This document shows positions 42,815-64,000 of a DNA stretch of 64,000 nt, piece by piece; position 1 is the first letter of the stretch; every line of letters starts with the position of its first letter. Under the pieces are notes generated by a model. It did not search any database. It worked only from the letters and a program-made list of their open reading frames with translations, and was not told the DNA's origin. Source of the DNA: Strix aluco (lineage: Eukaryota; Chordata; Aves; Strigiformes; Strigidae); the NCBI RefSeq assembly GCF_031877795.1, contig NC_133938.1:11440920-11504919 (forward strand). The letters are read 5' to 3'. The position numbers and the translations under genes are program-made.

Positions 42815-45800
42815 TCAGCTGTGCTTGTTGATGTGGCGGGAATGAGCGTGCACGGCCTCCACGAAGGCACCCACATGCTCGGGGCTCATGTCGGGGTAAA
42901 GGCCGTGGCCCAGGTTGGCGATGTAGCGTTGGGTCCCAAAACCTTCTAGCATCTTCTTCACCAGCTCGCCAATCTTCTCCTGCAGGCACAGTGGGAAACG
43001 ATGTGTCAGCCCGATCCAGTTCAGGGGGCTCCAGCCTGGAGGACTGCTGGGACATGAGTCAGCACTGCAGGTGGGGAAACTGAGGCAGGAGGCCTTTAAC
43101 ACAGGCTAGAACTAAACCCTGTTGCTGGCGCTGGCCACAGCTCACCTTGGGTGCGTAGAGAGCACAAGGATCCAGGTTCCCTTGCAGGGTGATGTCTTTC
43201 CCTATCTGTGCACTGCAGCAGGGAGGAAGCAGGCAAGTTGTTGCGTGTGGTGCAGATGCTGGGGGCAGCCAGGTGCCTGCAGTCCCCATCGCAGGGCACA
43301 TGGGACCCCTCAGTGCAGCCCCTAGTTGCTGTGAGCTCCATATAGCATGGGGCCCCAACGTCCCCACTGCTGGAGCAGAAATCTCCAGGCCTGGGATGGC
43401 TCAGGACAGAGGGAAAGGTCAGGGTACCCAGCCCGGGGTGCTGCCCAGGCATGTGAGTGCTCTGCCAGACTCTTACCGAGCTTCCTGGGGCCGGATGGTC
43501 CAGTCAAGTCCGACCACCTCATAACCTGCATGGGCCAGGTCGCGCAGCGCGTAGTGCGCGTCCTTCGCAAATATGATCTGGGGAGGGAGAAAACGGGCAG
43601 TAACTCCAGTATGGGTCAGGTCCCTCTCCACAGGCTAGACTGGGGGAAACAGGTGCCAGGGGATGCACCCCTGTCCAGCAGCCCCCCGATGCCAGGGTCA
43701 ATCAGGCAGCCCCGACTCACCATGGGCACCAGGGGCAGCGCCTCCTCCTTCAGCCTGCTCTTGACAGCCTGAGCGATGTCTCGGATGTAGGGCAGGGCGA
43801 AGTCCTGAAACTGCTCCGGGCCCAGGTGCCCTGCATGGGACTCAAACAGCTGGAGCGCCTGCCGGGGACATGGGGCTGGGAGAGCTGCACCTCAGTCCTT
43901 CCTCCTCCCCCCAGAAGCTGGACCCTCTCTGCTCCCTGTCCCCAGTTCCTGCCTGGCCCTGTCCCCATGTCCCAGGACACACCTGTGCTCCAGCAGCCAC
44001 CTGCCCCACGAGGTAGTCAGTGATGACATCGGCCAGCAGCTGCAGCAGTCGGTGGCTTGCCTCAGGGTGACGGTAGAGCCAGCTCTTGGCCTTGGCCATT
44101 GTAGTGGAGCCGCCACCTTCAATCATGTAGGACATGAGCGTCCACTGCAGGAAGGAGAGGAACGGAGTGAGGAGGGTGATGGAGACAGAAGAAGATGCAA
44201 GGGGCTGATCACAGTGCTGAAGGTAGGACCCGTGAGCACCCCAGAGCTTGGGGCACAGCTACTCTTGCATTGAACGTCCCCCACCTACACACCCCTCCCT
44301 ATAGCAGCCACAGCTCTGGGGGTGTCATGGCTGGTGTCACCCCAGAATAAAAAGCAGGGCAGCCCAGCTGGGAGCTCGCATGGAGGAGCCACGTCACTTA
44401 CAGGTGCCCCAGAGAAGCCGATGAGGGGCACCCTGCCCTCCAGGCTGTGTCGTGTCAACGTGATGGCCTGGAAAACGTAACCCAGCTCCGCTGTCACGTC
44501 CACCTTCTGTCGTAGTTTCAGCAGATCCTCCACCTCCTTCAGGGGCTCTGTGAATGTGGGTCCTTTCCCAGGGACCATGACAACCTCCATGCCCAGCGCC
44601 TGGGGACAGGGGAGATTGGAAGAAGCAGGAATGGCGGGGGGGCAGGCCTCAAACACAGCCCCATTCCCAGCTGCTGCTCCCCAACACTGACCTGAGGCAC
44701 CACCAAGATGTCAGAGAAGATGATGGCAGCATCCAGGGGGAATCGTCTGAGCGGCTGTGGAGGGGAAGAGGCAGTGTCAGTGAGGGGCTGGGAACCCCTC
44801 CCCATTGGAGGGCCTGGACAAGCACATGGGGCAGTGGGGTCCCCAAGGGCTGCACAACTTACTGGGGCCACCTGGGGTGGCCAGACCCAAGGTTTCTCCC
44901 CGTCCCCATCTGGGTGGGGAGAGGGGACACACAGACTCCACAGGCTCACCTGCAGCGTCAGCTCACAGCACAATTTGGGGCTCCGGCAAGTGGCGAAGAA
45001 ATCCTGCCCTGCCCGAGTCTCCCGAAACTCTGCAAGGGACCGGCACCAGTGTTATGGGGTGTGCGCTGGGCCCCACCTCTCCATCCCCACCCGCCGCACG
45101 CCCCCGCCTGCTCACCGGGCAGGTAGCGCCCCGCCTGCCGCATGCACCACACCGGGGTGTGTTCCGTCTCCTCCCCACGTGCCGCTCGCAGGAATGTGTC
45201 GTTCTTCAGCTTGGGGAAGCCCTTGGGGCTGTGGACAAAAGAGCAGATACAGGTTGTCACCCACGAGGGGTGTGGGTGCCCTGCCAGATCCCCGTGGCTG
45301 GGGGCAAGGGGGGCAGGGCCAGCGGCTCATCCCCACTCCCTGGACAGTGACCGCGGGAAAGGGCTTGCGCCCAGCTGTGACAAAAGCGGCAAATGCTCCC
45401 CATCATGGTCCACAGCCTCTTCCTGCTCGGCATCGTGGGGTTGTCCCCAGGGAGAGGCGATGCCTGGGCCCAGGGCCCTGTGAGATTAAGTTATCAGGGC
45501 CAGCAGCTGCTCCCGCCTGGAGAGATTTGGGGCCAGCGGGGCGCAGGGGGTGGGCAGCCCTGCCACCAGCGTCCCCGGTCCCTATCTGTGCTGTGCAGCC
45601 CCCGGAGGCCCAGGCACCCGCCGAGGTGGCAACCATGTGTCCCCAACCTCCCACCCACAGTGTCACCACCGAGGGGCTGCTGGAGCCTGGCCTGCCCCTG
45701 GGACGGGGACCCCAAGCAACCGCGGGGAATGGCCAGCACTGTCCTGCTGTGAGGGGCAGGGGCCACGGGGACAAAGTCCCCAAAACATCCAGTGTAGGAC

Positions 45801-46200: not shown

Positions 46201-46586
46201 CCTGCGCCGCTCTCCGGCCACCCCTTTGCTTCCCGACGCGGAGCGGCACGGCCAGCCCAGCCCGGCCCGCCCCACCCCGCCCCGCCCCGCCCCGCCGACG
46301 CCGCCATCTTGCCGTAGTCCCGCCTCTCCGTACGCCGCCATCTTGTCCCGCCCCCTCCGTACGCCGCCATCCTGCCCAGTTTCTCGTTCCTCCGTACGCC
46401 GCCATCTTGCCCTGCTCCTCGCGCGTCTGTACGCGGCACGGGCGCCACCATCTTGCCCTACGTCTGCCCCATCGGGCGCCGCCATCTTGCCTTGTCGGCG
46501 GGCGGGGTTTGCCGTAAACCCGCGAGTAGCGACCCCGCCGCTGTGGGGCTCGGCCGCTGTCCGCCGCACACGGTACCCGGTGCGCG
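46201..46586. promoter_or_regulatory. head-to-head UROD/HECTD3 promoter with YY1-site array
   Basis: Only 386 bases separate the two start codons. The UROD side has GC boxes (CCCCGCCCCGCC-type, about 46262-46295). A set of YY1-like sites follows, GCCGCCATCTTG or close to it, which is CAAGATGGCGGC on the other strand. They lie at 46300-46311, 46334-46345, 46363-46374 (one mismatch), 46398-46409, 46444-46455 (GCCACCATCTTG) and 46478-46489. Three of them lie inside a repeated CCGTACGCCGCCATC unit. No TATA box is seen. Binding by YY1 is inferred from the motif. The region lies in a CpG island running to about 47110. Confidence 0.85.
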
Positions 46587-57493
<10,907 letters not shown>

Positions 57494-62280: not shown

Positions 62281-62697
62281 CGGGAGGGAGTGGAGTCCTA
62301 AACCGCGGGGCGAGGGGACACCGGTCAGCGCCTGTCGGGGACCGAGGGACTGGGGTGGGTGTTACACAGTCGCATCTTGGCAAAGGGGGATGCCGGCGGC
62401 CCCACACCCAGCGCTCCGCTGGGGAGCGGGGGGACTGTGGCCCGGGAGGCGTGAAGAAGGGCTGCTGCGTACCGGGGCGCACGGGCGGAACTGCGCCTGC
62501 CCGGGGAGGAGGCGGCAGCCCGGCAGCAAGAGCTGTCCGCGGCGGGGCGGCCCCGGAGGGCCGGGCCGGGCCGGGCGCGGCCGGAGGCAGAGGCGGGCGC
62601 GGTGACACTGCTGGAGGCCAACGGGCACCGCCGGGCAGGGCCGGGGCGCAGCCGGAGCAGCACCGGGAGGGTGCGCGGAGCCGGTACCCGGTGCGCG
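62281..62697 (+). promoter_or_regulatory. CpG-rich 5' region of the HECTD3-like gene
   Basis: A GC- and CpG-rich stretch upstream of the second exon 1, with GGGCCGGGCCGGGCGCGG near 62562-62579. It has no YY1-type array and does not resemble the UROD/HECTD3 promoter, except for the last 16 bases (62682-62697), which belong to the identical block. The frame is open upstream to an ATG at 62602, so a longer N-terminus of 32 extra residues is possible. Confidence 0.55.
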
Positions 62698-63034
62698 ATG
62701 CGTGCGGGCGGGGAGGCGCCGCACCAGGTGCTGGGCCGGCTGCGGTTCCTGCTGCAGTGCAGCGAGTGCTTCCGCCGCGCCCGGGCGCTGCCCGCCGCGC
62801 TCTGCTACGTGCCGCGGGAGGTGCAGTACAAGATCTGCAAGGACCCCGCCGCCGCCGCCGCCGCTGCCGCCCGCAGCCTGCTCAGCGTCTGGGACAGCCC
62901 GGGGCCGGCGAGGGGCGGCAAGCGGGCGGCGAGGGCCACCATCGAGGTGCGGAAGGGCGGCTGCCTCCGCGCCACCGGCGAGGAGTACTGCAACGGCGCC
63001 GGGCTCTGGGTCAAGCTCAGCAAGGTAACGGCGG
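62682..63034 (+). repeat. 353-bp perfect duplicate of 46571-46923
   Basis: Comparing the two stretches base by base I find no mismatch over 353 positions (offset 16111). The block covers 16 bases before the ATG, all of exon 1 and 10 bases of intron 1. Outside it the sequences become unrelated at once on both sides. Confidence 0.93.
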
Positions 63035-63934
63035 CGGGACGCGCCCCGCCGCGCAGCCGCGAACTGCCGGGGGGGACCTGGGGTCCCGACGGCGATGACG
63101 AGCCGGGGTGCGCTTTCAGGAGCAGCTGGAGGAGCACACGAGCACCCGTGACCTGGCTGAGGGCTGGCTCCTGGCGCAGAGGTTTGGAGAGGGAGGAGAT
63201 AAGTTGGTACCGGTTGACTCCGTGGAGAAGATCCAGTGGCAGCGCCAAACATTCGGGGTTGATTATAAACCTGCGGTCAGGTACGGCCCCCAGCCTGCTG
63301 CACCCCGGGTAGGGACCAGGCTGTGGGCACCCTCGGAGGCACGTGTGGCTGGCACCCACAGAGGACGTGGGACCCAGCCATCCCAAAGCCCTTGGCACGT
63401 CCAGCACAGCCCCCCTGACACCCTCCAGCGCGGGTGGGACACATCCCCGCCGAGCCGCCTGTGGGCAGGAGGGTGGTGACCCCTCGTAGGCTAATCCTGT
63501 TTGCGTGTGGTAGCACCTGCGCAGGATAAAGGTGGTGCCAGCGGGTTTCTGAGGCACTCAGGTTTGGGCTGAGCAATGTCATGGAGGTAACACAGTGATG
63601 AGAGAGCTCATATTTGATTTTCATGCTGGAAGGCCATGTGCAGGGCTGGATTCCCCTGCTCAGCCCCAGCCTGCACCTGGGTGCTCTCATCCCTCCCACA
63701 GCTGTTCCTGCAGCCCCTGGGTGTTATCCCTGGTCCCTCAGTGCTGCTGCCTCCACTCTAGGCTAAGGCAGTAACGCTTGGGCACGCTGAGCACTGACCC
63801 ATCTTTTCCCTTCTGTGACTCCTCCACTGGTGCTGCTCCAGCTGGGAACAAGTGGTGGACCTGACCTACTCCATGCGCCTGGGAGAGAAGCCCAGACTCG
63901 TAGAGCAGGATGAAGCCGCGGTGCAGAAATTTCG
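62698..63934 (+). CDS. HECTD3-like tandem paralogue (first three coding exons; continues past window)
   Basis: Exons 62698-63024, 63120-63280 and 63842-63934 have lengths 327, 161 and 93, exactly those of HECTD3 exons 1-3, with the same phases. Exon 1 is identical to HECTD3 exon 1. Exon 2 (EQLEEHTSTRDLAEGWLLAQ...) is about 59% identical in protein and about 69% in DNA. Exon 3 (WEQVVDLTYSMRLGEKPRLV...) is about 77% identical in protein. Splice sites are good: donor GTAACG, acceptor CTTTCAG, donor GTACGG, acceptor CTCCAG, donor GTATGA. With no stops or frame breaks, it looks like a functional gene rather than a pseudogene as far as can be seen. The DOC and HECT regions lie beyond the window. 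Confidence 0.88.
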
Positions 63935-64000
63935 GTATGAGTGTATACGCTAGAGTGGTGCTGCAGCTCCCCGAGGAGCGGCCAGCCAGGGCCTAGACAT

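Follow-up and report, generated by a model that had tools for sequence, protein, structure and literature searches.

Mosaic concerted evolution has been reported for the mammalian gene pairs BMP8A/B, DDX19A/B and TUBG1/2, as set out in the available part of PMC2720389, and the accessible portion of PMC3161012 describes conversion of the first exon and part of intron 1 between the human delta and beta globin genes. Crossovers in the flycatcher reach their highest density in promoters and CpG islands, followed by first exons; the promoter rate is statistically above the intergenic rate, while the first-exon rate is not (PMC4878770, in the part available). Recombination rates in the blackcap peak at transcription start sites and are higher for promoters with CpG islands (PMC10781513, likewise in part).

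The HECTD3 locus of Strix aluco described here is a case of the first of these kinds, mosaic concerted evolution. What is unusual in this pair is a tract confined to an exon, the perfect identity of that tract and the age of the pair. An exon-only, CpG-rich tract is notable given that recombination in songbirds is concentrated at promoters. An old tandem pair that is identical in its CpG-rich first exon only, a small older patch aside, makes a clean case.

Gene models and relationship to HECTD3

The window, the whole stretch of 64,000 nucleotides that was analysed, corresponds to G000:C8:11440920-11504919 of an assembly of 1,414,655,264 bases (1.41 Gb) in 202 contigs. Gene models were built from similarity and splice borders, with 40 kb downstream of the window included. 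Two HECTD3 genes were predicted on the forward strand. Gene A (46587..57493) has 21 coding exons that encode 847 amino acids and is open throughout. Gene B (62698..64000 in the window) extends past the window to G000:C8:11512304 (window-extended position 71385); it also has 21 exons, encodes 846 amino acids and is open throughout, and its exons 1 to 3 lie in the window at 62698-63024, 63120-63280 and 63842-63934. In both models the exons have AG/GT borders, the exon phases match and internal stops are absent. With 21 predicted exons each, both copies look complete.

Both predicted proteins aligned with residues 14-864 of the chain PDB 9r85 ('E3 ubiquitin-protein ligase HECTD3'), which we take to be human, at 1614 bits for A and 1178 bits for B. 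The Pfam HECT and ANAPC10 (DOC/APC10) domains scored above cut-off in both. The cysteine of an STCS motif near the C-terminus, presumably the catalytic residue, is present in A, in B and in the PDB chain. On the grounds of length, domains and the STCS motif, A and B are both putative HECTD3 ligases. The first-pass annotation had described two HECTD3 paralogues, a description that the full-length alignment and the two domains support.

The two copies differ in how far they have moved from human HECTD3. Over exons 2-21, 627 of 737 residues of A are identical to the human protein compared to 457 of 737 in B, and A and B share 487 of 737 residues with each other outside exon 1. The exons of UROD (43842..45326, reverse strand; Pfam URO-D in 3 of 3 ORFs scanned) stand head-to-head with gene A. 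The same head-to-head arrangement of UROD and HECTD3 is found in mammals. On the strength of the UROD neighbour and the greater similarity to human HECTD3, we consider A to be the conserved orthologue and B a paralogue that evolves faster. Between the UROD exons and gene A, TRF reported a tandem repeat at 46279-46434 (unit of about 35 bp, 4.7 copies, 68% matches). Intron 10 of gene A holds an ORF (52190-52579) with no Pfam match, which to our eye resembles the tail of avian CR1 LINE elements.

By DNA, a search of the entire assembly with the exon 1 block described below, in which counts are lower bounds, returned no third copy. Outside the two loci, a protein search gave at least three matches to the HECT region, with 45%, 44% and 38% identity, on contigs C12, C2 and C21. 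Titles and the beginnings of abstracts, within a partial coverage of the literature, yielded no report of a HECTD3 duplicate in birds. In the available part of PMC2837046, a table row on HECTD3 lists a single gene under the last column, which is apparently the human one, and two genes under one other column.

An identical first exon in a diverged pair

The sequences at 46571-46923 (gene A) and 62682-63034 (gene B), both on the forward strand, match at 353 of 353 bp. Each block comprises 16 bp 5' of the ATG, the 327 bp coding part of exon 1 (46587-46913 in A, 62698-63024 in B) and 10 bp of intron 1. A genome search with the block found these two places only (two candidates, both scored; counts are lower bounds). 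The block is 76% GC with a CpG observed/expected ratio of 1.0, and exon 1 alone had no family match in Pfam. Comparison of the window with itself by BLAST gave 85.3% identity over 46571-47171 against 62682-63286 and 77.7% across a 121-column stretch that contains exon 3.

The remainder of the coding sequence is a different matter. Exon 2 (47005..47165 in A, 63120-63280 in B, forward strand) retains a DNA identity of 68.5% between the copies, and exon 3 one of 78.5%. When exons 2-21 were pooled, 249.75 of 498.5 synonymous sites differed (pS 0.50, dS 0.83, dN 0.22), as opposed to none of 85.3 synonymous and none of 241.7 nonsynonymous sites in exon 1 (dS 0). Fourfold degenerate sites differed at 84 of 223 positions in exons 2-21 and at 0 of 67 in exon 1, a result with a P of about 1.8e-14 under the rate of exons 2-21. 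Likewise, none of the 106 degenerate codons of exon 1 differs between the copies, while in exons 2-21 there are 158 differing codons among the 468 degenerate ones that encode the same residue in both. Identity in the coding alignment is unbroken for up to 342 columns, compared to a maximum of 68 in 2000 codon shuffles. The earlier reading had been that the two 353-bp blocks match at every base, that this extends to the synonymous sites of exon 1, that the next exon is about 69% identical in DNA and that exons 2 and 3 are old and diverged; each of these points is borne out by the counts above. The locus thus carries a sharp local excess of identity, silent sites included, on a diverged background, as a conversion tract does.

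The surroundings of the block retain little or no detectable similarity. Upstream flanks of 400 bp and 1000 bp scored no better than chance (243 and 291 of 300 shuffles, respectively, reached the observed score). Intron 1, which is 91 bp in one gene and 95 bp in the other, is weakly similar between A and B (7 of 300 shuffles reached the score) and matches at 12 of its first 14 bases. Introns 2 and 16 did not exceed shuffled similarity (116 and 115 of 300 shuffles, respectively). Each copy retains its own flanks, as in a conversion tract and not as in a new duplication. From these comparisons the identical block appears to be nearly all the sequence that is still homologous around exon 1. Since a repair tract cannot pair beyond homology, tight edges are to be expected and are no sign of an artefact. 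The first-pass annotation had counted the tight edges against conversion; that argument is weak, as no homology can be detected upstream and intron 1 has a faint trace at most, and a globin pair in the same genome (see below) has an equally tight 3' edge.

Probable gene conversion and its alternatives

Recent interlocus gene conversion between two old, tandem, full-length HECTD3 genes is, in our judgement, most likely the cause of the identity of exon 1. Conversion had been one of the two alternatives offered earlier, and it gains support from the contrast at silent sites and from the copy-specific flanks. We infer the mechanism, its recurrence and the reason that exon 1 was favoured as follows. 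An old duplication would have produced two tandem full-length HECTD3 genes, which diverged except where they were converted. A break inside the island of homology at exon 1 was then most likely repaired without crossover on the template of the paralogue some 16 kb away, once or repeatedly, and mismatches throughout the island would have been settled to one sequence. The tract would cover the island and end with it, the flanking UTR and intron having almost no alignable homology left.

The absence of any difference puts the 95% bound on divergence at 0.85% if all 353 sites are used or at 3.2% if the 67 fourfold and 26 flanking sites are used. At assumed avian rates of 1.5-3e-9 per site per year, the last event in exon 1 would be at most 1.4-2.8 Myr old by the first bound and 5.3-10.6 Myr by the second. 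Because conversion should be rare between sequences that are about 69-79% identical, either repeated events kept exon 1 similar or a single, unusual event took place. Since pairing is poor at the 69-79% of the neighbouring exons, it was probably earlier conversions that kept exon 1 similar. Human HECTD3 as an outgroup pointed to no donor for exon 1, since A and B are identical there and the distance of A from human is much the same in exons 2 and 3.

A second near-identical patch, of 117 bp with two differences, covers the 3' half of exon 16 and 10 bases of the following intron (55309..55425 in A, forward strand; G000:C8:11510442-11510558, window-extended 69523-69639, in B). It consists of exact runs of 43, 24 and 48 bp with single differences between them. 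Among the degenerate codons that encode the same residue in A and B, 2 of 35 differ within the patch, compared to 156 of 433 over the remainder of exons 2-21 (Fisher P 1.2e-4). The patch was selected once the data had been looked at, and scan permutation gives it a moderate probability (37 of 5000). The longest identical run in exons 2-21 was matched by 5 of 2000 shuffles. Identity over the 10 intron bases was ruled out as evidence, as exon 19, which is otherwise not near-identical, has an equal run on its donor side.

At the protein level A and B agree at 35 of 35 residues in the patch and both depart from human HECTD3 at 9 of them. In the rest of residues 520-847 of A, in contrast, A differs from human at 20 of 293 positions and B at 86 of 293, and the excess of differences between A and human within the patch (9/35 vs 20/293) has a P of 0.0014. 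The patch is thus a candidate for an older conversion over the 3' half of exon 16, and the residues that A shares there with B but not with human HECTD3 suggest that it ran from B to A, a polarity read from a single outgroup (human). The GC3 of exon 16 is 0.87 in A, the highest of the internal exons (tied with exon 2), and 0.83 in B, below exons 7 (0.96), 14 (0.85) and 20 (0.88); raised GC3 is therefore a weak sign of conversion at exon 16.

Among the other explanations for exon 1, an artefact of assembly or polishing, in which the two exons truly differ and one was overwritten during polishing by short GC-rich reads that came from the other copy, fares best, but we regard it as unlikely. The high GC content of the block is in its favor, and short reads could fit within 353 bp. 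However, polishing erases differences only between very similar copies, so that a high identity of the two exons would still need explaining; over-polishing of two exons that were already similar, which is possible, would likewise leave a conversion-like excess. Reading frames and splice phases are intact in both genes, the assembly has just 202 contigs for 1.41 Gb and there is no N across the 40 kb downstream. A misplaced read, contig or gap-fill would have carried the flanks of A with it, whereas B's own sequence reaches both edges of the block. Simple misplacement of exon 1 by the assembler was judged unlikely because of these copy-specific flanks. The first-pass annotation had treated double placement as a serious possibility; with B's own flanks on both sides, matching phases and the exon 16 patch, that concern loses most of its force.

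A good deal less probable is a one-off replacement, by template switching or insertion, in which B had lost its 5' end and a copy of exon 1 of A was recently inserted. This would suit the sharp edges of the block and a B promoter without detectable similarity to that of A, but the insert would have had to land beside exon 2 with the right orientation, phase and splice donor. The lengths of intron 1 and the match over its first bases are what would be expected if the exon had always been present, and the exon 16 patch suggests that exchange between A and B occurred in place. Purifying selection alone has next to no claim as the cause: conservation of the N-terminus with respect to human HECTD3 is recognisable (59 of 100 aligned residues), but of the 21 exons of A it is exon 1 that is least identical to human (59%, with exons 2 and 3 at 61%), A and B agree at every synonymous position and at 26 flanking bases, and the fourfold sites contradict, and led us to reject, selection on the protein unless an RNA or DNA element fills the entire exon.

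Gene conversion, then, is the reading we carry forward, and the CpG-rich 5' exon, taken with the concentration of recombination at promoters and CpG islands in the songbirds studied, offers a possible reason for the 5' bias. We put forward, tentatively and as somewhat less probable than its opposite, that the first exon has long acted as an island of conversion, in which meiotic breaks at avian promoters and CpG islands repeatedly homogenise the 5' exons of tandem paralogues. If so, the two ligases of the HECTD3 pair, otherwise separate, would have had a single N-terminal module in common over tens of millions of years. The pair could serve as a useful marker for whether promoter-directed recombination drives concerted evolution of first exons in birds. 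A search for PRDM9 through its SSXRD domain gave no match here and none in 14 control genomes either and is thus uninformative. HECTD3 A and B would be confounded in any tree or expression count that relies on exon 1.

Comparison with globin genes and mammalian pairs

Embryonic beta-globin genes undergo conversion in birds. The same genome has four beta-like globin genes within about 15.6 kb (G000:C2), and one pair of these, L009/L012, is 96.8% identical over 596 bp. Near-identity in this pair sets in about 155 bp upstream of the ATG, continues across exons 1 and 2 with the intron between them, and is lost a few bases past exon 2; intron 2 cannot be aligned, and exon 3 retains 79.9% identity. 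As a positive control, L009/L012 shows that 5'-biased tracts with an edge at the exon side occur here in another family. The three alpha-like globin genes of this genome, at 70-73% between copies, have no comparable tract. The alpha-A globin matches alpha-A chains of avian type: the six highest matches are fused constructs of two domains, and the best among ordinary chains are 3eok ('Hemoglobin subunit alpha-A'), 1faw and 1a4f, which are from waterfowl. Clusters of three alpha and four beta globin genes are also bird-like. Like HECTD3, the beta-like pair combines 5'-biased near-identity, a sharp edge just past an exon and a diverged 3' exon. Unlike HECTD3, its tract extends to about 600 bp, takes in intron 1 and 5' flank and is 96.8% rather than 100% identical.

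The mammalian pairs BMP8A/B, DDX19A/B and TUBG1/2 are, like HECTD3, old duplicates in which homogenised exons stand beside diverged ones (PMC2720389, in the part available). GC3 is raised in their homogenised part, although not significantly for rodent Bmp8, according to the same portion of that report. Their fragments, as described there (PMC2720389), include introns, whereas the HECTD3 tract adds 26 bp in all to a single exon, in a pair whose introns are essentially unalignable. The delta and beta globin genes are like HECTD3 in that a first exon was converted between tandem paralogues; they differ, in the accessible portion of that account, in that the conversion belongs to the human lineage and includes part of the intron (PMC3161012).
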